Positions 2,964 through 33,315 of a stretch of DNA of 33,621 nt are shown here, piece by piece. Each line of letters opens with the position of its first letter. Positions within the stretch are counted from its first letter, which is position 1. The translations under genes were made by a program, and so were the position numbers. Source of the stretch: Verrucomicrobiota bacterium (GTDB taxonomy: Bacteria; Verrucomicrobiota; Verrucomicrobiia; Limisphaerales; JACDHS01). The DNA lies in contig JACDHS010000053.1 of the NCBI GenBank assembly GCA_013820875.1, positions 1 through 33,621 on the forward strand, written 5' to 3'. The notes beneath the pieces are model-generated. The model searched no databases. It worked only from the letters and a program-made list of their open reading frames with translations, and had not been told where the DNA came from.

Positions 2964-3148
2964 GACGTTGCTACGGAGCGCGGCGTAATCGCAAAGCGGT
3001 TCGTTGTTTCTATAGTTCTGATTTGCGCGAAGCATCAGCCGCAGCGCTCAAGGCTGGAACGTTGCGCTGCTGGGCCTTCTATGACGCTCGAACAATCTCA
3101 CGCGCTGCGGCTGATCCTTCGGACACAGCCGCGCTCCGTAGCAACGTC
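2964..3148. repeat. 185-bp nested-palindrome dispersed element, copy 1
   Basis: The outer arms are a perfect 21-bp inverted repeat (2964-2984 and 3128-3148, core CTACGGAGCGCGGC). The inner arms are a 19-bp inverted repeat with one mismatch (3029-3047, GAAGCATCAGCCGCAGCGC, and 3102-3120). A second copy lies at the right end of the window (33511-33621). Relative to that copy, this one carries about 37 extra bases on the left side, between outer and inner arm (2985-3028). The remaining gap 2924-3223 holds nothing else I can support. The downstream protease reading frame runs open back through the element to 3023, but this is not real coding. Confidence 0.9.
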
Positions 3149-3223
3149 AAGCACACCCTAGCCGTAAACGCTTTTACATTTTGGCTCGCATTTTTAATCA
3201 AATTTCTGATAGAAACTCAGGCA

Positions 3224-7247: not shown

Positions 7248-7309
7248 GGTGGGGAAGTGGAGTGATGGAGTGTTGGAGTATTGACGCCCCATCACTCCAT
7301 CACCCCACC
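7248..7309. repeat. Hairpin repeat with TGGAGTGATGG arms
   Basis: TGGAGTGATGG (7258-7268) and CCATCACTCCA (7289-7299) are perfect 11-bp complements, extended outside by GGTGGGG (7248-7254) and CCCCACC (7303-7309). The element sits between two convergent genes, just after the subtilase stop codon. It lacks a T-tract, so an intrinsic terminator is not supported, though it could limit read-through. It belongs to the same TGGAGTGTTGGAG-rich family as the hairpin at 26897-26971. Confidence 0.75.
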
Positions 7310-17200: not shown

Positions 17201-18542
17201 CGCCAGGGATTGCGTCACGAACTGCGGCATCAAAACTCGCCGATGCCGAGTTGTATCCAAATGCCCCGATATAGTGCCAACTATTATTGGAGATAAGCGC
17301 GTTAGTCCTTCCGAATAGAAATAGATTAGTACGTGCAGCAAACTCCTGCATTTCCCAATCGAAAAACTCGAACAGATCCTGCGACAGAATGCTCGCTCCA
17401 TCGGCCATTCCGCGGAATTGAGCACCCACTTCTGAACCAATTGCATTGGTAGCTGGAAAAGGTCCATTTGCACCGCTGCTGGCAATGATTCCAGCCACAT
17501 GAGTTCCATGTCCATCCACATCTGTGGCCAGAGTGCGCGCACTAACATGCACACGATTCGTCAAATCCGGATGGCTCACGTCCACGCCGGTATCATTAAC
17601 GTTCACTAAGACATTCGTTCCCGTAAGCCCGAAGGTATTGAACAGATTGCTGGAGTTAGCCGAAACGCCAACACGCACGCGCGCCAAGTCGTTCGCCGTG
17701 ACCCGGTCCGTATGAAACTCAATATTCTGTACCAAAGGGAGTTGGGCCAGTGCAACCAACGCCTCACTGGGAACTTGAATGATCAACTCCGGACCGAAAG
17801 GAGAACGTTCTTTTCCAATGATTCGAGCATTCACAGCCTGCAACGCTTCCATTACAAGTTGTTCTCCTCCGGGAAAAAGGGTGACCCGCAAAGCAGCTCC
17901 AGCTTCAAATGGCTTATTCTCAATCGCCCGTTCCAGTACTGCTGTATCCAGTTTAAAATAGGGTTCGTAAGGCAACACCGATTGCGTCTGAGGCAGAGAT
18001 GCCAATTTCCGCGCGCCGGCGGCTGCAACTCGCACCAGATAGGCATTATTTGGAACGTAAGAAATAATCTCCGCATCGGCCGCCCGCAGTTGAGCGCGAA
18101 ATGCATCGTTTAGTTTCTGACGAGACTGGATAACGTAGCTGCCTGGATCTTCTGTGGCGCGAAGTTCTCGCGGAATGGCAAGTGGCTGGTCGGAACTTGT
18201 GTCAATCAACGCATTGCGAAGCAGCAATCCTTTCTCGTTTCTGCCGAGTTGGCTGGCAGTCTGTTCAGTATTGTTGAGGCGATAACGCAAGGGGTTCTCG
18301 ACATCAACAGCTTTGGCTCGAAATTCTTCCAGTGAAGTCGATGCAAGGAGCAATACAGGCGCAATCACCGGCAGCGCCGAGGATTGGTCCCTCGGAACAT
18401 CAACGTTGTTGGTTGAGGTGCTTCCCTCTTCCCCTGAGGCTCGTTGGCGTCCAGTCTGGCGATCGCCCAATTTCCAAAAGGCTATCGCCCCGATAAAACA
18501 AACCGCGCTGATTAATGCCCAGGTTTTAAATTTTAGCCGCAT
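11268..18542 (-). CDS. Giant secreted subtilisin-like (S8) protease with P domains and PPC repeats
   Basis: 2424 residues. An N-terminal hydrophobic segment (about 8-24) directs export, then a propeptide (about 60-290). The S8 catalytic domain (about 300-760) has D317 in VNDTGVD, H345 in GHGTHVAG, N462 in AAGNGG and S719 in GTSMAAP, so it should be active. A beta-sandwich typical of KP-43-like subtilases follows (about 800-960, TDPPGNPA...NDLDLVV). A first P-like domain lies at about 1145-1277, a second P domain begins near 1395, is interrupted by about 320 residues of galactose-binding-like beta modules (about 1491-1811) and resumes at YFYPEESLRLLTGE. Four bacterial pre-peptidase C-terminal-like domains come next (about 1875-2337) and a final fibronectin-like module ends in FYRV. 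The gene follows the cassette A gene by 62 nt on the same strand, with AGGA 7 nt before the ATG, so co-expression with the pseudopilus genes is plausible. Confidence 0.9.
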   Translation of the reverse strand: MRLKFKTWALISAVCFIGAIAFWKLGDRQTGRQRASGEEGSTSTNNVDVPRDQSSALPVIAPVLLLASTSLEEFRAKAVDVENPLRYRLNNTEQTASQLGRNEKGLLLRNALIDTSSDQPLAIPRELRATEDPGSYVIQSRQKLNDAFRAQLRAADAEIISYVPNNAYLVRVAAAGARKLASLPQTQSVLPYEPYFKLDTAVLERAIENKPFEAGAALRVTLFPGGEQLVMEALQAVNARIIGKERSPFGPELIIQVPSEALVALAQLPLVQNIEFHTDRVTANDLARVRVGVSANSSNLFNTFGLTGTNVLVNVNDTGVDVSHPDLTNRVHVSARTLATDVDGHGTHVAGIIASSGANGPFPATNAIGSEVGAQFRGMADGASILSQDLFEFFDWEMQEFAARTNLFLFGRTNALISNNSWHYIGAFGYNSASASFDAAVRDAIPGVTGSQPVLFVFAAGNGGGGNSGGSGGFPGRVASPATAKNVITVGAIESPRGITNRITRTNSFGTVTTNSEYLPLTDSSNQVARFSGRGNVGIGIEGDFGRFKPDVVAPGTFVVSTRSGQWDTNSYYNPTNISGRVFTNLVIGAGQTNSYALFVPNNTVEFWIEALPNGHSAVPFPSLQLYTNFTLNPSTDAANFSGTNALYLQDSDAGFSSGVEWFYDFVNTSSSTVRFDIRTVLFTTNNLGDSMQVLEGMNNDLIGPNGPPPHYRYETGTSMAAPVVSGMLALLQEYLETRISPAVSNASPALMKALLINSARSAGPFYDLDIKNNINYQGWGLPNLGRMLPGGGTNTAGIMFFDQSETNALATDEQHTREILLSEDAQESALRFSLVWTDPPGNPAVGIKLVNDLDLVVTNLDTGDVYFGNNFPGGGDYSDINFFVDGTNAPVVINSERDIVNNVENVYLNGPLNARYAVSIIGRRVNVNAVTAQTNGIKQDYALVVSIGDLTITNAITLSNLVITADIQANVTSMTNLNGGAAGEGYSFSIMMEQRVGANNPYEVQTNGTLNQWLFYAFTNTFGYSNVAFAVFGGINLSGINVRDYQVPSLRNLESDIDLYVSTDPALLNLDIEAIDLAHKSVERGGNELIILTDEPQTPGQVYYIGVKSEDQRASEFSILAISSELPFASDENGNVVPLFFPIPAEIKDGSPDAPGHTDVFGIVPFDRTIRRIIVTNEFDHQLFGDLVGVLYKQGIGKSVILNNHGFPGGQSSGIIENIYNDLNEGDTPYAHPSDGPGSLADFVGEKTRGLWFFTVSDNALTHTGQVLNFSFYIEPQPEDDSSNGGSEIIRKPVCKPIFANNQRYDAVTVPNFATNLTVNVSFTGGGTIEVYVRREALPTIADYDYKAIFNAPGGALRIGTGDLPPLTPGVYYIMYRNPGANVIDPVCWFTRIGLDLSDVTYKTYGMTNGAPLIDDAYTNSVITVTNTGLVGDVQVGVRIDHPRVSDLSLHLVSPSGTRILLFENRGGLSTTGLGGDSTTFDQDVNLNISKFEGSFTGNVSAPNTFQGWSVVSNQVTVTSDNAIAQQGDKYLELRSGSISRTLPTQPGRQYTLNYIYRASPTNTFPPTARVQVGSLAPVVHSGTAGWQMNSIPFVGAGVGTSLKIDGLTANMLIDNFFLLEEAIFSPVSHIVFTENTNLFPELIKFALPPFGATNLGAFVTTRSENSFEGIPPGEVPPGSVVEDWTVTSPNASVVTTPLAVDGANVLSLNNLLGGANEPLGAITRSYTNGPGTSYELKFSYRTPADSSDPTDAPARATIIIDGVLTTLTPEPNWNTFRTFFQPEGTDFTIDIAALTNGVWIDGMTLIQRVSGNYFYPEESLRLLTGEPAKGDWILEVWDNRLGAEINANIISWQLQLTILGDTTTAPTPQLLLNGVTATGTVVSNEIRYFVVDVPVSAAHATNFLTSLTGGQLELLFNQSTPPTGLGFGDFSLLQTPTPSRTLDTTSAPLLQPGQRYYLGVRNVNPTDSNNFTVLVKFDFVDNFVAGIPALTNAIAFNTNAPSGNAMQYFQFNVSPGALMATFELLNLTGNADLYIRYGAPVPSYSSYHYGSQNIGNSDELIVVSSSSTPVNLGPGTWYIGVLNLEPVPVDYSVKATEYFESDFNIIDLTPGVPVNGISYTGTLLTNYYRFVIDQTNSSALFEIFDLTGDVDLLVSRGSFPTRANHDIANPDEGTFPEEILVDGGMFPPDLNGTWYLVVVNNEAFDVDFTIQASVSPEIQQPPINIIPLISGAPTNGIAGTGTAITNFYSFVIDQTNSSVLFELFNLSGDGDLLVRFGDLPTLDNYDWISSNAGISPEQIVINTNGSLPELNGTWYLAVPNNEAFDLDFTIHAVVSSPNGVLLSGQPLQIISGPVIEDGSVKFQWNSVPGQTYEIQVSTDLITWVTEEVITAVGSVSDYVSPPIEGASMQFYRVIQVPPPSEP

Positions 18543-18604: not shown

Positions 18605-21600
18605 CTATTCCTCCGAAATAATCTGGAAGCTTTCGACGACTGCTTTCGGATTCTGGGGCGTGCCTTCCACGCGTAAAACGGTTTTGGTCACTACTTCACC
18701 TGCAATCTGGTAATTAGTGCAAATGTTCTGTAAGTAGCGACTGCCCAGAGGCGGGCTGATCACAATAGAATTCTGGGCGGGCCTTAATGCCTGGCCATAA
18801 GAGTAAACAACGTAACGCGGTTGTCCGACTTTCAACAACGAGAGAATCTGCTGCGGGATGCGTTCTACTGCGGCGTCATTCAATCCGTGCATTAACTGTT
18901 GCGAACCAGGTTGATCCCCCAGGAAAAGAAATGGTGATCCATTGGTTCCTGTTCCAATCGTCAGTTCAGGCGCGGATAAAATATCTCCGATGGATTCAAA
19001 AACTTGATTGGGCCGGGCGGCGCGTGCCGCGTTGATTGCATCTACGATGCTACTTAACTGCCGTGACGCCGGGTCAATCTGCAACGGTGCGAATGCAGGA
19101 TATTTCGTGGGGCTGAAAGTTGTTGCACTATTACTCAACACCTGAACACCACTCAGAACTGCCGACCATGATGCGATCTCACTCTGATTGACGGACAGCA
19201 ATCCACGCGCGGCATTGTCATTCGGCGCCGCCGAAAAAACGTCCAATAATGCCCAATCATTCGTTGGATGTGTATCGCGACTGCCGGACCACTTGCGCCA
19301 AAGATTCGTTTCCGCCACTCGGGACTTCAGGTAGATCGTCTGCCATGGAGTCCCTCGATGAACCCGTCCCATCCAACCGACATTCGGAAATTTGTTGGTG
19401 GGGAAATCCCAGTCGTCGGACCAACGAACCATCGGATCTTTCAATGCCAACTCGTAGTTCGTTTCTGGATCCACGGATTCCTCCGCGTCGGGGTTTTTAG
19501 TGGGAACTCGCTTACCACCCCACGGATTATAGCGGTTGTTGATTTTGCCCAGGTTATTCTTGGAATACTGTGAATAGGACTTGATCGGAGGCGAAAGCAA
19601 CTCCGGTTCAGACGGCCTGCGAAAATCCTGCAAGTCAGCTATCATGTAATGCACCAATGGATCATTCGCCTGCAAGGCATGACGGAAGTACAACGTTCGG
19701 GTTGGATTAAATGGAGATTCCATTTGGTTTGTCGGCGTCAAATTTTTCGACCCATAAATAGGAGTGCGACCAAGAAAATGTAAGAATTCGTCGATCTGCT
19801 TTTTCTTATCCCCTCCCCCGCTCTTGGGGCTGAAATTTTTCCATAAATCGTCAACTTCCGCTTCGGTAATCGGACCTCCACCCTGGGAGATTTGGAGTTG
19901 CCAGTACACACCCTCGGTAGGCTTATCAAGCTGATTACCGCCAAAACGATTTGTAAGCCAAAGGCTGTTTGGATTGAAAATTGATCCACCTCCTAAAGGA
20001 TAAGAATCTTCCTCCTCCGACGTAATTAGATATTTAGATAGGTCAATATGCGTCACCACATTCCCAAGGTTCACAAAATCTAAAACCCGGCCGGATTGCA
20101 AATGCTCTACGATGGCAGCAACCTGATTTGTGATCGTCAATCCCCAATGCGGAACATAAAATCCCTTCCCTCTTTCAAACGCGGCATTTGTTTTGGCGGA
20201 AGTAAACGCGGGAATACCAGATGGATAGTTGATATATTGGGACTCCGGCAGAAAGATGATCCCTTCATTTGTTGTTAGAAAAGAGTTTGGATTCAGCGCT
20301 GTTCGGAACAGCGCCCCAGGAATGAAGGCAGGATTCCGTGAAAATGAAGGACGCACACTATTCGTTCTCGAAATCTCAACCCCAAACTCATTTGTAAGCA
20401 CCGCTACATAGCTATTTGTGAATCGTATCCGGATATCTGCCGTAAAAGCAGAGGTATACGAATTCCAAAACTCTGCGCCGATGTAATTGGTAATCCCGAC
20501 AACATACATCTGGTTGGTTTCATTGGGTTTAGTTTTTGGATCTGAGTCCGGTTTGCGCAGCTCCAATTTCCGAGTCAACTGCACCACGGTTTCAATTGAT
20601 AACTCGTTGAAATTAGGCAACCCCTTTTTAGCACTCACCACCCATGGCACACCGACTACATTTAAGTCCGACGTCGCCGGATAATCAGCGATCGCATCAC
20701 GACCTGCTGAAAGATTCAGATTTGTGAAACCCTGCTCAAACAGAGTTAAACCATCCGTGGTCACTTCCTCATAGCCGGTGATAAAAATATCTGTCCCCTT
20801 CCTACTGAACTGCGGGCGAAATACAACTGGATAGTTCGTCACGGTGCCATTCGAAAAATCATTCGTGCCAGCCGAATAGATGTTCGCCGCCAACTGCAAC
20901 AAGCGGTGCACCGTGGGCGTATATTGGTTTGTCGGATAAACCATGATGTTGGTGAGATTGAAATTCGTGCCCACCGGTAAGCCGCCAATGTAATGATTCA
21001 CAGCGTCTGCGCGAATCAGGCTTTTTTGGATGAGAGCCTCAGCCGCATTGGTAAAAAAGCTAAGGGGCTTCCACGGAATAAAGTTCGTTTGGCTTGCCAA
21101 CAGATTGGGAGGATTGTTGGTGAAATTATCATAGTTCAGATGAATCTTGGGGTATGCTTTTCCCGCTATGACATACGTGTTGTTCGTGTCTGAAGTGGTT
21201 CCCAACTGGCTCAACAAACGGGCGAACGTTTGGTTATCGAAACTGTTCGATCGTGCTGCCATAGTCGAAAGACGTTGAACGAAATCCGGAGAAGTTTTGT
21301 TGGCATCGAACAACTCCTGGACGTCGCGATACGAATTGGTGCTTTTGCTGCCGGACCAGGGTCGTGAAACCGGATCTCTCGGATAAAACATCCCAGATGT
21401 CTCGTTTGTAAGAGCCAAATGACTGCTCATCAACGGGCCATCAGAATAGGTGTCAATATCGTCATTCTCAAGTTGCAGGTAATTGTTGGATTGCGGAAAA
21501 ATTTGAGCCGCTGATAAAAGGGTTCCAGCGTGCGCTGAGTTGGGGTTGGACGGATCTCTTCGATATCGGAATTTCAAAATATCAAAGGCATCATCAAACG

Positions 21601-22462
21601 AACCACCGCTGTTGTTGTCATTGATGTCTGTTCGATAGACATATGCAGCAGCGTTTTCATAGAGATTCGGATTCAAATCCTCTAAAAACGCTGCGAGATT
21701 CAATTCCCAGGAACCGACGCCCTGATTTCGCATGAACCCGTCCCCTTCCTGCATGTCCTGGCGCATGGGACCGGCGGTCCCTTTCACGTAATTATGCATG
21801 AAATTAATATCGAGAGTCCTGCCTTCAGGCAGAGCGACAAAGAGATAACGACCAATGAAACGGTTGGTGGGGGAATGACGATATTGCGGTTTCTCCAGAA
21901 CGCCGATCCACTCCGGATCACCCCACATAAAGACGTTGGTACCAATCTTGTTTCCATCGACATCAAAAACAAACTGTGGGCCATTTGTGTCAAACCGCCC
22001 GTTGCGGTTGAAATCGAGATAAAAGCGAAAATCTAATGGTCCGGTTTCATTCGTTTTGATGTAAACCGGCGGACGCGGGTCGTAGAACAGGTTGTAGATA
22101 TTGAGAATCTTGTCTTCCTCATTTGCCCATTTGGTATCGCCGTTATCCTGAAGTTCATAATTCACATTCAACAAGTCAGTTTCACCGGAAGAAAACCCCT
22201 CTGCCTTGATGTAATTCCGCGTCATCAAAAGGTCATAATTCAGCATGTTTGTCGTCGCGATCATGCGACTGACAATTTCAGCTTCAGCGCGCGCCATGGC
22301 GGTGTCGGCCATGAACCTGGAATCGGTCTGCGTCAGCGAAACGTTTACCGCAGCTTTGTCGCGCCGGGTCAAAACAAGGAATGCCACGGCCAGGAACGTG
22401 ATCACGGAAAGCATGATCAACGTGATGACAAGGGCTACACCGCGTTGTTGGTTAAATTTCAT
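18605..22462 (-). CDS. Verru_Chthon cassette protein A, giant GspK/PilX-like minor pseudopilin
   Basis: 1285 residues. The N-terminus QQRGVALVITLIMLSVITF is a prepilin-like segment without the Glu5 found in other pilins, the hallmark of GspK/PilX tip proteins. It is followed by a very large extracytoplasmic part, about four times the length of a normal GspK. A loop DFNRNGRFD (150-158) followed by DVDGNKIG looks calcium-binding, recalling the calcium sites of GspK. Near the C-terminus, INAARAARPNQVFESIGDIL (about 1143-1162) resembles the SAM-like helical repeat of GspK. The family is known as the largest member of a four-gene Verrucomicrobia cassette with B, C and D, all present directly upstream. 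ATG overlaps the stop of gene C by 4 nt (ATGA). It probably caps a pseudopilus tip and may recruit substrate (inference). Confidence 0.88.
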   Translation of the reverse strand: MKFNQQRGVALVITLIMLSVITFLAVAFLVLTRRDKAAVNVSLTQTDSRFMADTAMARAEAEIVSRMIATTNMLNYDLLMTRNYIKAEGFSSGETDLLNVNYELQDNGDTKWANEEDKILNIYNLFYDPRPPVYIKTNETGPLDFRFYLDFNRNGRFDTNGPQFVFDVDGNKIGTNVFMWGDPEWIGVLEKPQYRHSPTNRFIGRYLFVALPEGRTLDINFMHNYVKGTAGPMRQDMQEGDGFMRNQGVGSWELNLAAFLEDLNPNLYENAAAYVYRTDINDNNSGGSFDDAFDILKFRYRRDPSNPNSAHAGTLLSAAQIFPQSNNYLQLENDDIDTYSDGPLMSSHLALTNETSGMFYPRDPVSRPWSGSKSTNSYRDVQELFDANKTSPDFVQRLSTMAARSNSFDNQTFARLLSQLGTTSDTNNTYVIAGKAYPKIHLNYDNFTNNPPNLLASQTNFIPWKPLSFFTNAAEALIQKSLIRADAVNHYIGGLPVGTNFNLTNIMVYPTNQYTPTVHRLLQLAANIYSAGTNDFSNGTVTNYPVVFRPQFSRKGTDIFITGYEEVTTDGLTLFEQGFTNLNLSAGRDAIADYPATSDLNVVGVPWVVSAKKGLPNFNELSIETVVQLTRKLELRKPDSDPKTKPNETNQMYVVGITNYIGAEFWNSYTSAFTADIRIRFTNSYVAVLTNEFGVEISRTNSVRPSFSRNPAFIPGALFRTALNPNSFLTTNEGIIFLPESQYINYPSGIPAFTSAKTNAAFERGKGFYVPHWGLTITNQVAAIVEHLQSGRVLDFVNLGNVVTHIDLSKYLITSEEEDSYPLGGGSIFNPNSLWLTNRFGGNQLDKPTEGVYWQLQISQGGGPITEAEVDDLWKNFSPKSGGGDKKKQIDEFLHFLGRTPIYGSKNLTPTNQMESPFNPTRTLYFRHALQANDPLVHYMIADLQDFRRPSEPELLSPPIKSYSQYSKNNLGKINNRYNPWGGKRVPTKNPDAEESVDPETNYELALKDPMVRWSDDWDFPTNKFPNVGWMGRVHRGTPWQTIYLKSRVAETNLWRKWSGSRDTHPTNDWALLDVFSAAPNDNAARGLLSVNQSEIASWSAVLSGVQVLSNSATTFSPTKYPAFAPLQIDPASRQLSSIVDAINAARAARPNQVFESIGDILSAPELTIGTGTNGSPFLFLGDQPGSQQLMHGLNDAAVERIPQQILSLLKVGQPRYVVYSYGQALRPAQNSIVISPPLGSRYLQNICTNYQIAGEVVTKTVLRVEGTPQNPKAVVESFQIISEE

Positions 22463-23340
22463 CGGACAGCAGTACGAATTGGAATTTGGCGGCGGAAAAT
22501 GTGAATTTTACCCGCGTTATTGGTTAAAAAGCGCCGAATAGCGTCTTCATTGCGACCAGGAAGCAAAGAATCAGCAATCAAAGGACGAAGCTGGTCAAGC
22601 GCGCGGGGATCAAGTATCCCCAATTCAAGATCGATACTGGCCGGCACCGAAGCACCAGACAGATTCATCCGGTGCAAGCCCTTGAATAAATCATTAAGAT
22701 AAACTTCAGGCGGCATATCGTTTGTAAATGGACGCCCGTTCTTGTCATACATGGTGACCTTGAAATGAACCACTCCATCGGCCAGTCGCCGCATGGTTCC
22801 ACTCGTCACCATTGTTAACGTCGGACCATGGAACGTGCGCATGTGCTGAGAACTTAAATTGGAAGAATTGGTGCGAAAGCTGTAAAGAGCGCCGACGATA
22901 ATATTATTGGTGACGTCCAAACCATCGGTATGAACAGAAGAATTCAATACGCGGTAGCCCATCGCTTCCCAATCCCGTTGATTCCTAAGAAAGAAAAATG
23001 TCTGAAGAAAAAGGGTCTGATCCTCCCCGCCCGGCGGCGTGTATATTACCGGATCAACTTTCGAATGCAGTTGCACCTGCGCATTGGTAATATCCCAACG
23101 ATAAGCCGCAGCCATCTGCTCAACATCGCGGGCGATGAAATCCATGGCTGCCCGCCCGGTTTCCATAATGTCATTTTGGCCCAACCCGGTTCGGAACGCC
23201 CGTTGAGTTTGATTAAACATCAGCATCAAGCTGAGCAGGATCAAAAGCAGCAGTGTGCTGGCGACCAACATTTCGATCAGCGTCAACCCGCTTTGCTGGC
23301 GCCTTCGAATTTGAACATGGAGCGATCGGGTTTTCATCAC
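22459..23340 (-). CDS. Verru_Chthon cassette protein C, GspJ-like minor pseudopilin
   Basis: 293 residues. A basic leader ends in QQSG, followed by LTLIEMLVASTLLLLILLSL, a type IV prepilin class-3 signal with Glu at mature position 5. The continuation FNQTQRAFRTGLGQNDIMETGRAAMDFIARDVEQ is the conserved part of cassette C and resembles GspJ-type minor pseudopilins. The start shown is GTG at 23340, which overlaps the stop of gene B as GTGA; the ATG at 23337 (TGATG junction) is an equally good choice. AGGA lies 7 nt before the GTG and 10 nt before the ATG. The stop overlaps the start of gene A. By analogy with T2SS it would form the tip complex with the other cassette proteins. Confidence 0.87.
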   Translation of the reverse strand: MMKTRSLHVQIRRRQQSGLTLIEMLVASTLLLLILLSLMLMFNQTQRAFRTGLGQNDIMETGRAAMDFIARDVEQMAAAYRWDITNAQVQLHSKVDPVIYTPPGGEDQTLFLQTFFFLRNQRDWEAMGYRVLNSSVHTDGLDVTNNIIVGALYSFRTNSSNLSSQHMRTFHGPTLTMVTSGTMRRLADGVVHFKVTMYDKNGRPFTNDMPPEVYLNDLFKGLHRMNLSGASVPASIDLELGILDPRALDQLRPLIADSLLPGRNEDAIRRFLTNNAGKIHIFRRQIPIRTAVR

Positions 23341-24104
23341 TTTCTATCCTGAAAATATCGAGGTGTAAAAAAGCTCAGCGGGGCGTGATCGTGATTCATC
23401 TTTCCGCTCACCATGGCGCGAAAGACTTTGCGGTTCGGGCCTGGGGCTCCACTGGGGAGCAATGGCCACTGGCAAATCACCCGCACTTCATACAAGTTGA
23501 CCGACAACGCATTCGTGTAAGGTTCAAAATGATCTGTCCCAATCAGAGGGGCGACTACCGCTGCCACTTCGGTTGCGTTCGTTCCCCAATCGAGCGGAAT
23601 CACTTCAGTGGTAATTTGATACGCGAAAGCAAAGTCCTTGGATGCGCCACCTGTTTCAACCGCGGCACCACTCAAAGCACGGACACGCGCGATGACACTA
23701 GTCACAGGAGCGCCACCCGAAGGTCCAAAAGCCTTCCCATAGGGCAAACTTAACAACCCCACGATGTTGCTTCCAGCAGGGTTCAGAAGATTTGCATAGT
23801 AATCGAAATTGGTGTCGAAGGTCGGAGTATCATTTACTAGTGTGACCACCCCAATGGCATCCACGTTATTGAGAAGGTCATCCATTCCTTGAGAGCCATT
23901 CCGAATCAACTCTAAAAAGTAAGGTCCATCCTGGTTGATGATCGTTTCCTCACGGTTCTCTTTCTGTGCCGTTAAACCGGTGGGAAGGACACCAATGATG
24001 GCAACGAGAGCGAACCCGATGATCGCCAGCGAGATGGCGATCTCGATCATGGTAAAGGCGCGTTCCCGCCTCACCGTGAACTGTTTCAGATGCGTGGTTC
24101 TCAT
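23337..24104 (-). CDS. Verru_Chthon cassette protein B, GspI-like minor pseudopilin
   Basis: 255 residues. After a basic leader comes AFTMIEIAISLAIIGFALVA with Glu5 and Ala rather than Gly at the -1 cleavage position. The segment VLPTGLTAQKENREETIINQ is characteristic of cassette B proteins. The placement after D and before C, with 4-nt overlaps at both ends (ATGA with gene D, GTGA with gene C), mirrors gspI between gspH and gspJ. A role in priming or capping the pseudopilus is inferred from T2SS. Confidence 0.87.
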   Translation of the reverse strand: MRTTHLKQFTVRRERAFTMIEIAISLAIIGFALVAIIGVLPTGLTAQKENREETIINQDGPYFLELIRNGSQGMDDLLNNVDAIGVVTLVNDTPTFDTNFDYYANLLNPAGSNIVGLLSLPYGKAFGPSGGAPVTSVIARVRALSGAAVETGGASKDFAFAYQITTEVIPLDWGTNATEVAAVVAPLIGTDHFEPYTNALSVNLYEVRVICQWPLLPSGAPGPNRKVFRAMVSGKMNHDHAPLSFFTPRYFQDRK

Positions 24105-24967
24105 TGTATTTCCATCCTCTCCAGCTTTGCCCGACCGGTCAGCGAATCAACGCGGATCAGCGTGAAATTGGTTCTTGTTGCCTCACGGTACCCGGTTTGA
24201 ACGACATCAGGCGCCAACGGTCCACCGGCACTGTTGGTCAGATAAAAAATGCTGCCGGGCGATAGTGTAATAAACTCATCTTGCAGACTCACCAATCCTC
24301 CTTGTGGATTGAAGGCGATGTAAGGCAATTCGAATTTTCTTGGAACAACGTTGGTTATCTCGGTAGAAGGGAATACAAAGGACCGGCGCTGAAACGGGCG
24401 CACTTCGAATTGCCGAGTCTTGTCATAAGGATCAACGATGGTTTCAAACAGATTGGTAAGCAAACTGAACTTGTTCGTCTCAATCAAAACTCCCTCCGGC
24501 AAACTTCGCCATGCTGTCAGGTAATTGGTAGCATTCCGTCCAATTTGATCGCCCAGGGTACGTTCAACATAAAGGGCGTAGGAAGTGTATTGCCCGTTCA
24601 ACAAGGTGTTCGCTTGTTTTTTACTTACTGGGTTTAACGCGTTGAAGGGCACAGCGTTGACGCCACTCCAAAATTCCGGCGGAACGAAAACCATATACAC
24701 AGTTGTTCTACCGCTGATGGCTTTCTGTCGGGCGTATGCAACATCATCCAGCAACTGCCGGGTCGCGGTGGACATGGTGTTCGATTTGGTTAAACCATTG
24801 ATGGCGGGAATTGCGATCGAAGAAATGATGGCGATGATGATGATCACCACCAACATTTCGATAAGGGTAAACGCCAGCACGCTTCGCACTCGAGCAGAAC
24901 TTCTTCCGAAAACGGACGTGGCAGCTCCGCTTTGGCTGAGATTCGGTTGAGACAAGTTCAAGCGCAT
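24101..24967 (-). CDS. Verru_Chthon cassette protein D, GspH-like minor pseudopilin
   Basis: 288 residues. A leader of about 32 residues with several Arg ends in LA, then FTLIEMLVVIIIIAIISSIA with Glu5, and MSTATRQLLDDVAYARQKAI, the helix seen in GspH/FimT-type pilins and in cassette D proteins. The mature part is beta-rich. The gene starts 12 nt after the GspG-like gene and its stop overlaps the ATG of gene B (ATGA). It is the first gene of the four-gene cassette, placed where gspH follows gspG in T2SS operons. Confidence 0.86.
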   Translation of the reverse strand: MRLNLSQPNLSQSGAATSVFGRSSARVRSVLAFTLIEMLVVIIIIAIISSIAIPAINGLTKSNTMSTATRQLLDDVAYARQKAISGRTTVYMVFVPPEFWSGVNAVPFNALNPVSKKQANTLLNGQYTSYALYVERTLGDQIGRNATNYLTAWRSLPEGVLIETNKFSLLTNLFETIVDPYDKTRQFEVRPFQRRSFVFPSTEITNVVPRKFELPYIAFNPQGGLVSLQDEFITLSPGSIFYLTNSAGGPLAPDVVQTGYREATRTNFTLIRVDSLTGRAKLERMEIQ

Positions 24968-24979
24968 GACATCAAATTC

Positions 24980-25957
<978 letters not shown>

Positions 25958-25959
25958 CG

Positions 25960-26583
25960 TTATTCCTTCCAGTTAGCGATTCTATTTGTTTTGGAACCCA
26001 CAATAATATCTGCCCACAAATCAAAAGAGGCTGGGTTGTTGGTCGCTCCTTTTGAAACGTAGCGCCAGGTGTTCACGCGTCTGCCGAAATCGTTCATGAC
26101 CTCCGGTTCGGCAGGACCTTCCACAGGAACAATCAATACATTTACTCCACGAACCCGGCTATACTGGTTTGTTTTCAGATTCGAAAAATAGTTTTTTGCC
26201 GTTTCGGGGTTGGAATTGGCAAAACCGGTTACACCAAAAACATCTTTGATTTCTGAATCTGAAATGGGTGCGTCCCCCTGGATAGTGCGGTATTGAGTCC
26301 CATCATAGCGGGTTCCGGACAATTCATAAAACAGGGGAGGCAATTCCGCTTTTATATCCCCATTCGCCTTTAAACCGCCGGGAGGATAAAAATGCTGATC
26401 GTTCTGGTATCGTTCAATGACCGATTCCAGGTTGGCCAATTCCGCCTTCACCCGGCCCAACTTCTGTCCCTCCGCAGCCCTTCGCGCTCCAGCGGTGACC
26501 AATGCGGCAAGAATGGCGATGATCGCGATCACCACGAGCATTTCCACCAAGGTAAATGCTGCTTTATTTGAATTATGCGTCAT
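25960..26583 (-). CDS. Pseudopilin (type II secretion / type IV pilin-like)
   Basis: 207 residues from MTHNSNKAAFTLVEMLVVIA. The class-3 prepilin signal has Ala at -1 and Glu5, followed by LAALVTAGARRAAEGQKLGRVKAELANLESVIERYQNDQHFYPPGG, the long N-terminal helix and the periplasmic start seen in GspG-like pilins. The open frame continues to 26652, but the ATG at 26583 is one nucleotide after the stop of the antitoxin gene (TGATATG) and gives a normal short leader, so I prefer it. Its stop lies within the ribosome-binding site of the next pseudopilin gene, so the two are likely translated together. It could be a second shaft subunit or a minor subunit. Confidence 0.84.
   Translation of the reverse strand: MTHNSNKAAFTLVEMLVVIAIIAILAALVTAGARRAAEGQKLGRVKAELANLESVIERYQNDQHFYPPGGLKANGDIKAELPPLFYELSGTRYDGTQYRTIQGDAPISDSEIKDVFGVTGFANSNPETAKNYFSNLKTNQYSRVRGVNVLIVPVEGPAEPEVMNDFGRRVNTWRYVSKGATNNPASFDLWADIIVGSKTNRIANWKE
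25963..25970 (-). promoter_or_regulatory. Ribosome-binding site deciding the GspG-like start
   Basis: On the minus strand GGAAGGAA (25970-25963) precedes the ATG at 25957 by 5 nt and overlaps the stop codon of the upstream pseudopilin. It supports translation from 25957 rather than the internal Met at 25846, which has no such site, and indicates translational coupling. Confidence 0.7.
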
Positions 26584-26584
26584 A

Positions 26585-26893
26585 TCATTGACCAATATGG
26601 TTGCGAACGACGGTGACACGTTGATCCCGCATCTCTTGTTCCATCCGTTCACTGAGCCATTGTTTTATCATGCTTTGATAGTTTAGATAACGTGACTTGG
26701 CTAAACGTTTGATCCTGGATAACATTCGTGGATCAATTCGCAGGGTAATCGTGATCGAATCAGACGATTCACTGCTCGCTGTAGCCGCTTCTTCCATCAG
26801 GCGCAGATCCACTTTCGTTTCCGCCCAATAAGCCGCTTCCGCCTCTTCCCGGTCGAAGATCGGCACTTCATCCCAATTTGAGATACTGTTCAT
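26585..26893 (-). CDS. CopG/BrnA-like ribbon-helix-helix antitoxin
   Basis: 102 residues from MNSISNWDEVPIFDREEAEA. The N-terminal WDEVPIF...EAAYWAET segment is typical of the CopG-family antitoxins that pair with BrnT toxins. The C-terminal half ITITLRIDPRMLSRIKRLAK plus YLNYQSMIKQWLSERMEQEM is a ribbon-helix-helix DNA-binding domain. Such antitoxins neutralise the toxin and repress their own promoter. The frame is open to 26968, but the extra 25 residues only translate the hairpin repeat at 26897-26971; neither start has a well-spaced Shine-Dalgarno (GGAG lies 2 nt before the upstream ATG). The partner toxin is directly upstream, and the stop codon is one nucleotide from the pseudopilin ATG, which ties this gene to the pseudopilin operon. 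Confidence 0.82.
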   Translation of the reverse strand: MNSISNWDEVPIFDREEAEAAYWAETKVDLRLMEEAATASSESSDSITITLRIDPRMLSRIKRLAKSRYLNYQSMIKQWLSERMEQEMRDQRVTVVRNHIGQ

Positions 26894-26896
26894 AGG

Positions 26897-26971
26897 GAAA
26901 TGGGGTGTTGGAGTGGTGGAGTAATGGAGTGGTGCAAATGCCAACACTCCAACACTCCAACACTCCATTTC
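26897..26971. repeat. 75-bp hairpin repeat between toxin and antitoxin genes
   Basis: The arms at 26897-26921 and 26947-26971 (from GAAATGGGGTGTTGGAGTG and its near complement, with CAACACTCCA repeated at 10-bp period) form a long imperfect stem with a 25-nt loop. It belongs to the same TGGAGTGTTGGAG family as 7248-7309. On the minus strand it ends only 3 nt before the antitoxin ATG at 26893. Confidence 0.85.
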
Positions 26972-26990
26972 TCCGTTTTTGGTTCCATCT

Positions 26991-27278
26991 TCATTGCGCC
27001 AATGCTGCGTTTAGTTTCCGTTGATAAAGAAATTGTTCCTCCGATTCAAATCGCCGCGAGTAAATCACCCGCACCTGTTTGCCATTCGTTTTGTAGATTG
27101 AAAAAATGCCAGTCCCATCGAGCGACGTGCCTAAATTGAAGAAACGGGCCTGGAGCGAGAATCGGGGTGAGTCCGGCAGCAAACGGACCGCGAACGGATC
27201 CTCAAACGACTCTTCAATAGATTGAAGTTTCATTGTGCTTTCTAAATTAAACGGCGGATTGCTCCAGTTAAAATCCAT
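26991..27278 (-). CDS. BrnT-like toxin of a type II toxin-antitoxin pair
   Basis: 95 residues aligning in outline with BrnT: MDFNWSNPPFNLEST, then IEESFEDPFAVRLLPD, a central strand-rich part with GTGIFSIYKTNGKQVRVIYSRRFESEEQFLY, corresponding to the RiIsAR..... ExxxY C-terminal pattern of the family. BrnT toxins adopt an RNase-like fold and inhibit translation. The usual His near FEEA is not obvious (KLQSIEESF replaces KHGVSFEEA), so activity is uncertain. It is followed by the antitoxin gene in the standard toxin-first order and preceded by a palindromic operator candidate. The upstream neighbour, gspF, ends in an intrinsic terminator, so this gene opens a new transcription unit. Confidence 0.72.
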   Translation of the reverse strand: MDFNWSNPPFNLESTMKLQSIEESFEDPFAVRLLPDSPRFSLQARFFNLGTSLDGTGIFSIYKTNGKQVRVIYSRRFESEEQFLYQRKLNAALAQ

Positions 27279-27302
27279 ACTTTGTAAATTGAATGGCTGT
27301 GC

Positions 27303-27316
27303 AATGTATTTACATT
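27303..27316. promoter_or_regulatory. Candidate operator of the toxin-antitoxin unit
   Basis: AATGTA-tt-TACATT is a perfect 6-bp palindrome with a 2-bp spacer, 25 nt ahead of the toxin start, in an AT-rich stretch with a TTGACG (minus strand, about 27340) that could be a -35 element. Such short palindromes are typical ribbon-helix-helix binding sites. The functional link is inferred. Confidence 0.4.
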
Positions 27317-27362
27317 GTATTTACCGCTTTTATTTCAGTCCCGTCAAGTAAACTTCTCCACG

Positions 27363-27390
27363 AAAAAAGCCTCCGAGCGTTCTCGGAGGC
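27363..27390 (-). terminator. Intrinsic terminator after gspF/pilC
   Basis: On the minus strand GCCTCCGAG-aacg-CTCGGAGGC forms a perfect 9-bp GC-rich stem with a 4-nt loop (27390-27369), followed by six T (27368-27363). It lies 23 nt after the stop of the GspF gene and separates the ATPase/platform genes from the toxin-antitoxin/pseudopilin unit. Confidence 0.92.
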
Positions 27391-27413
27391 TTATTGAAGC
27401 ATTTTCCTACCGG

Positions 27414-28703
27414 TTATTCTTTCTGTGGCGCATCGAAACCGCCGTCCATCAACTGAATCAGGGGCAGGAACAGTGCGATCACGATACTACCGACGATCAC
27501 GGCAAGAAACACGATCATGATCGGTTCCAGCAACGAGGTCATGGCGGCAACTGCGTTGTCCACTTCCTCATCATAGTTGTCGGCGATCTTCATTAACATT
27601 TCCGGCAAGGCACCGGTCTGTTCACCGACGTCCACCATACTGATCACCATCGGCGGAAATACTTTGGAGGCTTCCAGCGGAGCGGTAATCGTTTCGCCTT
27701 CTTTCACACTCTCATGAACCGCGGCCACTGCGTCCCCGACAATAATATTTCCAGAAGTTTCTTTGACAATCGTCAGCGATTGGAGAATTGGCACACCGCT
27801 GCTGACCAGCGTGCCGAAGGTCCTGGTAAAACGTGAGATAGCGACTTTTGAGATCACCGGACCTAACAAAGGCATTTTTAATTTAAACCGGTCGAACAGC
27901 TTTCGGCCGAATCGCGTGCTGATGAACACTTTGAAAACAATAAAAATGCCGACCAAACTAAGAAACGTCAGCAAAGAGTGATCCTTGATGATTTCGCTGG
28001 TGCGAAGGACGAACAGTGTAAACGGATGCAACGGCATGCCGAGGCCATCGAAGATTTCCCGGAACTTTGGCACCACGAAGATCATGAGGATGGCCATGAT
28101 ACCCACGGCAACTGTGATAACCGCCGCCGGGTAGAACATGGCTGCAATGACTTTGCCTTTGATCTTCTGGGCTTTTTCCATGAACTCGGACAGACGCTTG
28201 AGCACGACTTCAAGCACACCGCCCATTTCGCCGGCTTTTACCATGTTCACGTAGAGCCGGTTGAAAACTTTCGGATGCTGCGCCAGACCTTCAGAAAAAG
28301 TGGAACCACCTTCGATCGAAACGCCGAGATCATTGATAATCTTCTTGAGGGTGGGGCTGCGCTCCTGCTTTTCGAGCACACGCAGGCCGCGCAAAAGAGG
28401 CAGACCAGCTTCCACCAATGTAGCCAACTGACGCGTAAAAACAGTGAGAACCTTTGATTTCACCCTGCCGCTGAGGCCAGGGATACTGATGTTAAGGTTC
28501 ATGTTCATCCCGCCCTTTTTGCCCCCCTTCCCTTTGGGCGCAGATTTCCCGCCAGCGGGTTTGCCCTTTTCCTCAACGACTTTGGTCGGGAAATAACCCA
28601 TCTCCTTGATGCGCCCGATCGCCTCGTTCTGGTTGGCGACTTCGAGTATCCCCTTGGTTTCTTTGCCACGGGAATCCATGGCGACATAAGAGAATTTTGG
28701 CAT
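27414..28703 (-). CDS. Type II secretion / type IV pilus inner-membrane platform protein GspF/PilC
   Basis: 429 residues. MPKFSYVAMDSRGKETKGILE is the usual N-terminus of GspF/PilC. Two GspF domains follow: one from VFTRQLATLVEAGLPLLRGL, the other from FTRTFGTLVSSGVPILQSL. There are three transmembrane segments (about residues 200-225, 250-270 and 395-415) and the terminal ALFLPLIQLMDG. A Gly/Lys-rich insert (GKPAGGKSAPKGKGGKKGG) lies at about 47-66. The protein anchors the assembly ATPase and acts in pilin extraction. The start lies 5 nt after the stop of the second GspE gene, in one operon with it, and a strong terminator follows. Confidence 0.95.
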   Translation of the reverse strand: MPKFSYVAMDSRGKETKGILEVANQNEAIGRIKEMGYFPTKVVEEKGKPAGGKSAPKGKGGKKGGMNMNLNISIPGLSGRVKSKVLTVFTRQLATLVEAGLPLLRGLRVLEKQERSPTLKKIINDLGVSIEGGSTFSEGLAQHPKVFNRLYVNMVKAGEMGGVLEVVLKRLSEFMEKAQKIKGKVIAAMFYPAAVITVAVGIMAILMIFVVPKFREIFDGLGMPLHPFTLFVLRTSEIIKDHSLLTFLSLVGIFIVFKVFISTRFGRKLFDRFKLKMPLLGPVISKVAISRFTRTFGTLVSSGVPILQSLTIVKETSGNIIVGDAVAAVHESVKEGETITAPLEASKVFPPMVISMVDVGEQTGALPEMLMKIADNYDEEVDNAVAAMTSLLEPIMIVFLAVIVGSIVIALFLPLIQLMDGGFDAPQKE

Positions 28704-28708
28704 AAGAA

Positions 28709-30403
28709 TCAGGTATATTTAACGACTTCTTCGATGGTTGTTTCTCCGTCAAAGATGCCTCGCAAACCATCTTCGCGAAGTGTCACCATCCCGAGTTCAA
28801 CCGCTTTCTGACGAATCACAATGGTAGGCGCCCGTTCGTTGATAAGAGCACGAATCGGTTCATTGACCACGAGCAATTCGAAAATGCCCTTCCGGCCTTT
28901 GTAACCGCTGTCATTGCAATTGGCGCAACCGCGTCCGTAGTAAAAGGATTTGTCCCCAATGTCATGCGGAGACAGATTCAACATCGATAATTGATTTTCC
29001 GTTGGCTCGAACGGGGTGCGGCATTTTTTGCAAACCGTACGAACCAGACGTTGCGCGAGAACCCCCATCAACGTGGAAGAAATCAGGAATGGCTCCACGC
29101 CCATGTCCACCAGACGCGTCACAGCGCCAGGCGCATCGTTCGTGTGCAACGTGCTCAATACCAAATGGCCGGTGAGAGAGGCCTGGATCGCAATTTGCGA
29201 TGTCTCCAGATCGCGCATTTCTCCCAGCATGATCACGTCGGGATCCTGACGCAGAAATGATTTGAGCGCTTTACCGAAAGTCATTCCCACGGCTTCATTC
29301 ACCGCCACCTGCATGATGCCGTCGATGTCGAATTCGACCGGGTCTTCGGCGGTCAACAGTTTTGAATCGATCGTGTTTACTTTGCGAAGACAGGAATAAA
29401 GCGTTGTTGTTTTACCGGAACCGGTCGGGCCGGTTACCACGAAAATGCCGTTTGGCTGCTGGATCGCTTCACAGACATATTCGTAAATCGGTTTGGGAAG
29501 CCCGGTATTTTCCAGTTCGAGACTGACGGAGGAACGATCCAGAACACGAAGCACCACTGATTCACCGAATTGCGTCGGCAGCGTGGACATACGCAGATCG
29601 ATCTGCTTGCCAGCGAGCTTCATGCTGATTCGACCATCCTGGGGCAGGCGGCGTTCAGAAATATTCAGATCCGCCATGATCTTGAGGCGCGACACCACCG
29701 GCAAAGCCAGGTTCTTCGGCGGAGGCGACATCTCGTAAAGCGCGCCGTCCACACGATAGCGGATTTTAAATTCGTCTTCGAACGGTTCGAAATGAATATC
29801 ACTCGCGCGATCCTGAACTGCCTGGGCAATCACCAGGTTAACGAACCGGACGATAGGCGTTTCGTTCGCAACCTCCTGAACATCGCCGCCGGCCGCGGCT
29901 TCAGCCGCTTCCCTGGCGATATCGTCGCTGCCGAGCTCTGCCAACATATCGGAGACACTCGTTCCGGTGTCGGGATAATGCTGGTTGATCGCCTTTTCGA
30001 TTTCAGCGGGATCAGCAACAACAATCTGAATGTCACGCTTGGTAATGAAGCCCAGTTCATCCACCAGGGAGGGATTCAACGGATCCGCGAGGGCGATTTG
30101 CACTGTTGCACCATAAATGGCGATTGGAAGCGCCTGGTACATACGAGCCGTTTCAGGGGGAACAGAGCCGAGCACCTCAGGGGTTAACTCGAAATCCCCG
30201 ATGTTAACAACCATTGTTCCCATGTGCTCAGCCTTGATCTGAAGCTGGGTATCAACGTCCATCAACCCGAAGTCCACCAGCAACTGGTCAATGGACTTCC
30301 CGCTGCGCAAATGTTCCTGCACAACTTCTTCGACCTGCAGATCGTCGAGCAAAGCTCGCTCTTTGATCAACTCCAGCAGCGGATTGGAAACGTAATCGGC
30401 CAT
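28709..30403 (-). CDS. Assembly ATPase GspE/PilB, second paralogue
   Basis: 564 residues. An N-terminal GspE_N-like domain (about 1-150) is followed by the AAA-like ATPase: Walker [10 protein letters not shown] with K331, Asp box [10 protein letters not shown], Walker [10 protein letters not shown], His box [18 protein letters not shown], and a zinc tetracysteine (CKKC...CANC). All catalytic elements are present. It powers pseudopilin or pilin polymerisation at the cytoplasmic face, working with GspF encoded 5 nt downstream. It starts 3 nt after the PilT stop. A differing N-terminal domain from the first paralogue suggests a separate platform partner (inference). Confidence 0.95.
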
Positions 30404-30406
30404 AGG

Positions 30407-31549
30407 TTAGGAAGCCTCTTCAGGTGGTGGTGGTGGTGGAGCCTGGGGAGCATTCCGCTGTTGCTGCGCTTGCTCAACTTCCAATTCCTGCAACTTCTGC
30501 AGGATGGTCTGCGGATCCTGTGACTTGTTAATGACGTCATCGCGGGAAATGACCCCCTGCTGATATTTATCGAGCAGGTAACCGTCCAATGTCACCATCC
30601 CATATTTAGCGCCGGTCTGAATGTCAGATTGGATACGGAAACTTTTGTTATCACGAATCAACGCCGCGATGGCCGGCGTATTGATCATGATTTCATAAAC
30701 GGCCACACGACCCGGCTTGTCCGCGCGGGGCAACAACAATTGTGAAATCACCGCTTGCAACACCGTCGAAATCTGGATGCGAATGGTTTCCTGCTGGTTC
30801 GTCGGAAACGCGTTCACGATACGATCAATCGTCTTGGCCGCACCTGTGGTGTGCAGTGTGCCGAAGACCAAGTGACCCGTTTCAGCAGCCGTAATGGCCG
30901 CTTCCATCGTTTCCAGATCGCGCAACTCACCGACCAGGATCACATCCGGATCCTGACGCAACGCGCGGCGCAAGGCTTCTGCAAAACTTGGAACATCCAC
31001 GTTCACTTCGCGCTGGGTTACCACCCCCTTCTTATGCGTATGATAATATTCGATCGGATCTTCAATCGTGATGATGTGGGCATCGTTCCGCTCTTCGTTG
31101 ATGATATTGATCATCGACGCAAGCGTTGTCGTTTTGCCCGATCCGGTGGGACCGGTCACCAGAACCAGACCACGCGGCTTATAAATCAGGTTTCGAATCG
31201 TCCCCTCAGGAAGACCGATCTGTTCCAGCGTCAAAAGTCGGGTCGGAATTTGCCGCAGCACCATCGCAAAATTCCCTTTTTCCTTGAAAACACTGACACG
31301 AAAACGCGCCCGGTCACCGAAAGCAAAACCAAAATCCGCGCCGCCACGTTCGCGCACTTGCTGAATGTGATCTTCGGAGGTGATGCTCCGCATCAGTTCT
31401 TCTGTATCCTCTTGTTTGAGTGGCGGGCCTTCCACGCGATGCAAATCACCGTGCAACCGAATAACCGGCGGAACATCCACACGCAAATGCAAGTCAGCGG
31501 CGCCTTCATCCACCACTAACTGCAAGAGATCAGACATCGAATAAGACAT
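30407..31549 (-). CDS. pilT: Twitching motility / retraction ATPase PilT
   Basis: 380 residues, the normal PilT size. The N-terminal PAS-like domain begins [18 protein letters not shown]; Walker [10 protein letters not shown] includes K139; the Asp box is [10 protein letters not shown], Walker [10 protein letters not shown], His box [15 protein letters not shown]. The PilT-typical segment [20 protein letters not shown] follows. The C-terminus has a Gln-rich stretch and a run of Pro ([11 protein letters not shown]), an unusual tail. PilT disassembles the fibre, so its presence between two GspE/PilB genes argues that this locus makes, or shares parts with, a retractile type IV pilus rather than only a secretion pseudopilus. 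Start at 31549; the Met at 31537 is possible. Confidence 0.93.
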
Positions 31550-31611
31550 ATGTAAAACAGCTCTCTATTTATTTAGACCACTGGAAGTTTATTTCGTCAC
31601 GCAACGAGCGA

Positions 31612-33315
<1,704 letters not shown>

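Follow-up and report, generated by a model that had tools for sequence, protein, structure and literature searches.

The locus analyzed here raises the question of why a pair of small genes resembling a toxin-antitoxin module stands directly ahead of a run of pseudopilin genes, and whether the antitoxin of the pair controls them. It lies on the minus strand of a 33,621-nucleotide stretch of Verrucomicrobiota DNA (contig JACDHS010000053.1, assembly GCA_013820875.1, order Limisphaerales), which is called the window below. The features required for the argument are as follows, with the proteins of the pair designated T and A and the pseudopilins P1 to P5.

27367..27392, minus strand: intrinsic terminator, 11-bp stem, 4-nt loop, T tail
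27342..27347, minus strand: putative −35 box of the pair's promoter, TTGACG, 16 nt upstream of the operator, read from the sequence
27302..27325, minus strand: candidate operator GGTAAATACAATGTAAATACATTG, a pair of GTAAWTAC units, each nearly palindromic, at a spacing of 11 bp, at the expected −10 place
26991..27278, minus strand: T ("toxin"), 95 aa, BrnT-fold protein without the Lys-His pair, by profile match and predicted structure
26585..26893, minus strand: A, CopG/ribbon-helix-helix (RHH) antitoxin-like protein, PF12441 at 40.7 bits
25960..26583, minus strand: P1, first pseudopilin, one base after A, N_methyl PF07963 at 33.7 bits
24980..25957, minus strand: P2, second pseudopilin, GspG-like, PF07963 and T2SSG PF08334 above cut-off
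24101..24967, minus strand: P3, third pseudopilin, GspH-like, PF07963 and PF12019 above cut-off
23337..24104, minus strand: P4, fourth pseudopilin, PF07963 at 21.9 bits (cut-off 21.2)
22459..23340, minus strand: P5, fifth pseudopilin, GspJ-like, PF07963 at 25 bits, TIGR01711 below cut-off
18605..22462, minus strand: large cassette protein, 1285 aa, TIGR02600 at only 14.6 bits
11268..18542, minus strand: S8 protease, 2424 aa, PF00082, possible last gene of the operon

A reading made from the sequence alone had placed a strong terminator at the end of the preceding ATPase operon, and one was located on the minus strand at 27392–27367, after a GspF/PilC-like gene (27414–28703) and with seven GC pairs in its stem. 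The operon that it closes consists of PilB-, PilT-, PilB- and PilC-like genes. The stem is the longest among 11 terminator-like sites in 22000–28800; the number of sites itself carries no meaning, because 9.1 are expected by chance. The stretch from 27414 to 33315 is a single operon for two ATPases of PilB type, one PilT and one PilC-like protein; on this gene content the machine is possibly a pilus that retracts and not a type II secretion system. The same sequence-only reading had noted that the antitoxin stop lies one nucleotide from the pseudopilin ATG and that all genes down to 18605 are contiguous or overlapping, and both descriptions are accurate: the stop of A is at 26585 and the ATG of P1 at 26583, and the junctions after P1 consist of gaps of 2 and 12 nt followed by three 4-nt overlaps.

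The cassette protein (18605–22462) bears a weak likeness to Verru_Chthon cassette protein A, with a TIGR02600 score far below the 332.3-bit cut-off for membership, and its gene follows those of the pilins in most loci of sufficient length. The S8 protease gene begins 62 nt beyond the end of the cassette gene and is possibly the last gene of the pilin operon. The window encodes two very large S8 proteases with P-domains, at 3023–7237 and 11268–18542, one of them behind the pilin operon. Repeats of 8 nt (ACTCCAAC-like) occur in inverted arms at 26897–26971, between T and A, and at 7259–7306, and the genome holds 240 matches to them (overlapping matches included, up to 3 mismatches), while the reversed control gave 0.

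A belongs by score to the CopG_antitoxin family (cut-off 28 bits), so that the earlier assignment of a CopG-like antitoxin holds, and 43 of 43 relatives match PF12441 at E ≤1. Its start was taken as 26893, where homology begins, rather than as the first ATG at 26968. In an alignment of 43 sequences, 24 columns are invariant, most of them in the RHH half; the structure model of A was too poor for use (pLDDT 57). For T, an AlphaFold model with pLDDT 83 was obtained, which matches 7vd7_A with a Z score of 10.3 over 84 residues and BrnT (3u97) with a Z score of 6.4 over 71 residues, RelE-type toxins coming next at 4.7; Foldseek on the same model returned no E-value under 0.001. As judged from this model, T is a BrnT-fold protein. 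By profile score, T reaches 18.7 bits against BrnT PF04365 (E 0.0022), below the 34.5-bit cut-off, and 39 of the 44 members of its family match PF04365 at E ≤1, one of which, in G019, passes at 34.9 bits. No match to T was found in NCBIfam or PADLOC, and searches of the sequences of solved structures with the T and A alignments gave chance matches or none. The proposal of a BrnT-like toxin is thus borne out as to fold and not as to a standard BrnT, since T scores below the cut-off and has lost the Lys-His pair considered below. Two small, adjacent, co-oriented genes with one putative promoter and a predicted operator conform to the architecture of a type II toxin-antitoxin locus.

The conservation of the pair was surveyed in 58 genomes of Limisphaerales representing 57 families, with the genome of the window as G000. 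A was found in 44 of the 58, and T, by family profile, in the same 44, which come from 43 families. Restricting the survey to genomes with a completeness of 90% or more and a contamination of 5% or less leaves 39, of which 35 have the pair. Each of the 44 carries one pair only. Because the locus of G014 falls on two contigs, the 43 relatives gave 44 stretches. In 42 of these, T, A and P1 follow one another on one strand as in the window; in the other two the contig ends within 82 bases after A. P1 is next after the pair in all 42 genomes whose contig reaches it. Identities to the proteins of the window are 52–77% for T, 57–81% for A, 29–45% for P1 and, where present, 60–78% for GspF. Of the 38 loci whose sequence extends 5 kb or more beyond T on the upstream side, 26 have GspF directly ahead of it.

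A wider scan of the genomes of 84,980 species yielded 368 stretches encoding a relative, of which the best 80, overlapping in part with the 44 order loci, were kept. Most of these 80 are named as Verrucomicrobia or a subgroup, including Limisphaera and Pedosphaera, and the few titled Akkermansia, Omnitrophota or plain "bacterium" are ill-fitting or uninformative and may be misnamed. Within the best 80 of 368, the toxins match over at least residues 1–93 with no stop, A follows T in 79 (the contig ends in the other), P1 follows in 74 of 74 loci with room, and of the 68 loci long enough to show GspF upstream, 49 do so; L207 is counted among those lacking GspF upstream, yet has a nearer GspF match. 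Because adjacency to P1 is constant and adjacency to GspF is not (26/38 and 49/68), the pair tracks the pilin operon and not the ATPase operon. The survey of relatives that had been proposed as a check therefore finds the pair directly ahead of pseudopilin genes.

Toxin-antitoxin modules are often mobile, as a chance insertion of an ordinary module at this site would presuppose. Absence of the pair from this position in all relatives had been named as the sign of such an event, and it plainly does not apply, P1 following the pair in all 42 genomes whose contig reaches it and in 74 of 74 named loci with room. With the same site in 43 families, one operator and a single pair per genome, chance insertion has next to no probability, and it was rejected on the fixed place ahead of P1 in the survey of relatives.

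No pair was found in 14 of the 58 genomes. In G003, G032 and G020 the junction from GspF to P1 is intact, and profile searches gave neither T nor A. In eight further genomes without a match to the pair (L273–L280) the pilin or cassette genes lie on contigs that end inside the pilin genes or past them but short of the expected site, so that the position of the pair is not part of the assembly. No match to the cassette protein was found in G009, G016 and G023, which are 57–83% complete.

The palindrome pointed out in the sequence-only reading as an operator candidate has 7-bp arms around a central TT (27302–27317) and turned out to be part of a 24-bp candidate operator kept in all relatives checked that carry the pair. 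When as many as 150 bases ahead of each of the 44 toxins were searched for a motif without a seed, TGTAAATACAATGTAATTACATTG emerged at 28.0 bits, compared with 8.2–8.4 bits in three shuffles; it was found in 42 of the 44, and in the remaining two loci (L094 and L128) the operator lies further upstream, giving 44 of 44 pair loci. In a leave-one-out analysis the operator was the best place of the whole locus in 38 of 42 cases; each of the remaining four has a higher-scoring place that overlaps the operator, at offsets of −14, −3, 11 and −3. The best TTGACA-like hexamer ahead of the operator in the 42 loci, mostly at a distance of 15 bases, is perfect in 26, agrees at 5 of 6 positions in 12 and is worse in 4. 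In every one of the 80 named loci (best 80 of 368) the operator likewise came out as the top-scoring place, also in the 62 of 62 held out from training. It is missing from all three pilin loci without the pair (L134–L136), where the best scores were 0.8–7.3 against a median of 36.6.

Across the 58 genomes, the operator pattern with up to 2 mismatches occurs at 27 places in 25 genomes (G014 being counted on both strands) and at one place only in the genome of the window; a single place, in G050, lies outside the pair's promoter. A model built from 29 promoters identified 46 of 58 genomes at E ≤0.1, namely the 44 with the pair and, weakly, G016 and G032. Other operator-like places are in G050:C38 (E 1.6e-9) and G048:C21 (E 6.2e-5), with weak repeats in G021, and none beyond the pair's promoter was found in the window's own genome. 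The place in G050 (G050:C38:20031–20099, near 5056 of L239) is a second operator-like site with a TTGACA, ahead of a gene for a 666-aa protein, and is possibly an extra target in that one genome.

A sigma-70 scan gave three promoter-like sites where 6.7 were expected and missed the pair's own promoter because its TAAATA violates the −10 rule of the scan. A stricter promoter scan of the 42 loci, with one match, before P1 in L091, shares this −10 weakness, and counts of TTGAC were therefore relied on. TTGAC lies inside the gap between T and A in 2 of 42 loci and inside the gap between A and the pilin in 1 of 42. The median gaps are 25 and 24 nt, respectively, and the latter is at most 70 nt in 37 of 42 loci and 140–490 nt in the other 5. 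Because these gaps are short and TTGAC sites few, we infer a transcript shared with the pilin genes.

These data bear on the alternative that the pair regulates itself alone, with the pilins expressed from another promoter and the linkage reflecting vertical inheritance of a stable gene order. The evolutionary distances of T and A do agree with those of P1 and P2 (Spearman 0.46–0.59) and of GspF (0.56–0.58), 0 of 500 permutations being as high, as vertical descent predicts, and related pairs elsewhere are mostly not ahead of pilins. Against such an account stand the small distances between the genes, the near absence of TTGAC ahead of the pilin, and adjacency to P1 in every one of the 74 named loci with room when 19 of 68 are not scored as having GspF upstream (best 80 of 368), and we regard it as unlikely.

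The second question is whether T still acts as a toxin. A lysine and a histidine of the N-terminal part are reported to be important for toxicity in BrnT, RelS and Aave_1720, according to the available text of PMC13284704 and PMC10714953. This Lys-His pair is absent from 44 of 44 T sequences, as judged by alignment rather than superposition. The stretch from W5 to the DP motif is 3 residues shorter than in BrnT and contains no mostly basic column except position 19 (23/44); K17 is present in five of the 44, the T of the window among them, histidines are scattered in eight, and a K-H dipeptide occurs in three, elsewhere in the chain. Among other BrnT proteins of the order, of which 11 matches were reduced to nine by leaving out a fragment and a weak one, the pair is present in six of nine, and it is present in 11 of 12 weak BrnT matches examined elsewhere in the phylum. 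T is nonetheless under purifying selection as estimated from coding sequences, with median dN/dS values in close pairs, which are not independent of each other, of 0.15 for T (150 pairs), 0.14 for A (136), 0.39 for P1 (138) and 0.14 for GspF (83).

The sequence-only reading had also offered a working toxin as a guard for the machine. In this case T would remain an RNase toxin with altered catalytic residues, freed upon loss of the pilin operon or of A, so that the cell would be addicted to the machine or would arrest growth upon its failure. T is never found without A in the 58 genomes and is selected for; R70, R75, E81 and Y85, which form part of the BrnT site, are retained, so that part of an RNA-binding or catalytic surface may be left and another RNase chemistry is possible; and the G019 member passes the BrnT cut-off. 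Against the guard as stated, Lys-His is absent from all 44 sequences and position 19 alone is mostly basic in that stretch; addiction, moreover, should resist the kind of loss seen in three genomes (L134–L136) that kept the pilin operon without the pair and operator. A working guard toxin is accordingly given a low probability and is less likely than an exapted autorepressor.

Pairs outside the order were examined for the origin of the module. The T profile matched 61 of 383 genomes across the phylum, 36 at E <1e-17, of which three are in the order; 20 of the 33 strong matches outside it were examined (L241–L260). In all 20 loci A adjoins T and the Lys-His pair is absent, and in two of 20 (L243 and L246) the pair lies among pilins, with a partial operator in L246 and none in L243. 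The gene order in L243 (G364) is GspF, pilin, T, A, pilin, which places the pair inside a pilin cluster without an operator. A gene for a VanZ-like membrane protein is next in 7 of the 15 outside-order loci listed, and both of the two checked match PF04892. No shared operator was seen before outside-order pairs, the best motif in 13 loci reaching 11.9 bits against 11.2–11.6 in shuffles; in five of the loci a motif reached 16.2 bits against 13.2–14.1 shuffled, and three of its sites resemble the terminal part of a coding gene that lies upstream. Because outside-order pairs mostly precede other genes and show no common operator, T and A have a use that needs neither pilins nor the operator.

In a tree of 77 toxins, the family without Lys-His stands apart from canonical BrnT (support 100/97), and 46 of 46 pilin-linked toxins fall in one group (97/87); the sequences are short, many forks are open and the root is at the midpoint. 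The simplest reading is that Lys-His was lost first and that the pair joined the pilin operon once, later, a direction that the tree does not prove.

We propose, with a probability of roughly two in three, that a BrnT/BrnA-type module was exapted as a dedicated autorepressor switch of the pseudopilus operon, with T as a non-toxic partner. The module would most simply have been taken over in an ancestor of the order. In line with what is established for RHH antitoxins, A, probably with T bound, would sit on the tandem GTAAWTAC sites at the promoter, where its dimers would cover the −10 region, so that T, A, the five pseudopilins and the cassette protein would be repressed as one transcript. T would owe its retention not to toxicity but to tuning, as a partner, the hold of A on the operator, through co-repression and release at a high T:A ratio, and loss or turnover of A would turn the pilin genes on. 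We infer both the complex of T with A and the non-toxicity of T. Antitoxin control of the pilin operon, as proposed in the sequence-only reading, is the best-supported interpretation, because the pair did not arrive at this site by chance and its promoter carries a conserved operator of RHH type; the analysis itself shows the gene order and co-occurrence, their conservation, the operator, the lack of Lys-His and the purifying selection. Several points count against the switch. It is dispensable, because three genomes keep the pilin operon without the pair and operator; related pairs outside the order mostly lie ahead of other genes, and L243 has pilins but no operator; 5 of 42 loci have gaps of 140–490 nt between A and the pilin; part of the BrnT site is retained in T; and the BrnA-like antitoxin Aave_1719 is reported, in the available text of PMC10714953, not to bind DNA upstream of its own operon.

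A variant in which T is an assembly sensor, binding unassembled pilin, a pilus part or the operon mRNA and thereby removing A from the operator, seems quite improbable; if true, pilin transcription would be tied to how far the machine is assembled, in the manner of a secretion checkpoint.

The function of chromosomal toxin-antitoxin pairs has long been debated. Here such a pair has kept the same address and the same operator throughout 43 families of an order, and its toxin lacks the toxicity residues of its relatives; because address and operator are fixed while those residues are gone, the case for exaptation as a regulator is strong. The observation is far more general than a single window, and the proposed autorepressor switch yields a prediction, accessible to experiment, for the regulation of a pilus-like machine in a large group of bacteria most of which are uncultured. 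In the open-licence PMC papers searched, no description of this arrangement was found, no paper combined BrnT with a pilin or Limisphaerales with a toxin-antitoxin system, and none dealt with the "Verru Chthon cassette".

Among known systems, the pair shares with BrnT/BrnA of Brucella abortus (PF04365/PF14384; 3u97) the toxin-first order, the predicted BrnT fold and an RHH partner, and the closest structural match, 7vd7_A, is a toxin from Salmonella that carries the Lys-His motif of BrnT in its sequence. BrnA and the BrnT-BrnA complex are reported to bind their own promoter in the available text of PMC10714953. The pair of the window differs from BrnT/BrnA in that T falls below the Pfam cut-off, without Lys-His and with 3 residues fewer in that stretch, that A is PF12441 rather than BrnA by score, and that it is fixed ahead of a pilin operon. 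A is a member of CopG_antitoxin PF12441 by score, and the pair is distinguished from that family at large by its order-wide operator and its Lys-His-less partner. RelS-RelI of Mycobacterium tuberculosis has in common with T the BrnT-like fold of RelS, in which K9 and H10 correspond to BrnT K16 and H17 (PMC13284704, available text); as described there, RelS keeps K-H and cleaves 16S rRNA, and its antitoxin is of another family. In Pseudomonas aeruginosa, the integrative element ICE PAPI-1 encodes TprA, an RHH protein that regulates expression driven by the pil2 promoter (PMC8565334, available text), much as is proposed for A; TprA differs in acting with NdpA2, and the available part of that source mentions no toxin partner for it. 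The Verru_Chthon cassette (TIGR02596, 02598, 02599 and 02600) consists of pseudopilins followed by a protein of ~1300 aa, the same arrangement as in the window, where the matches to these models all lie below their cut-offs.
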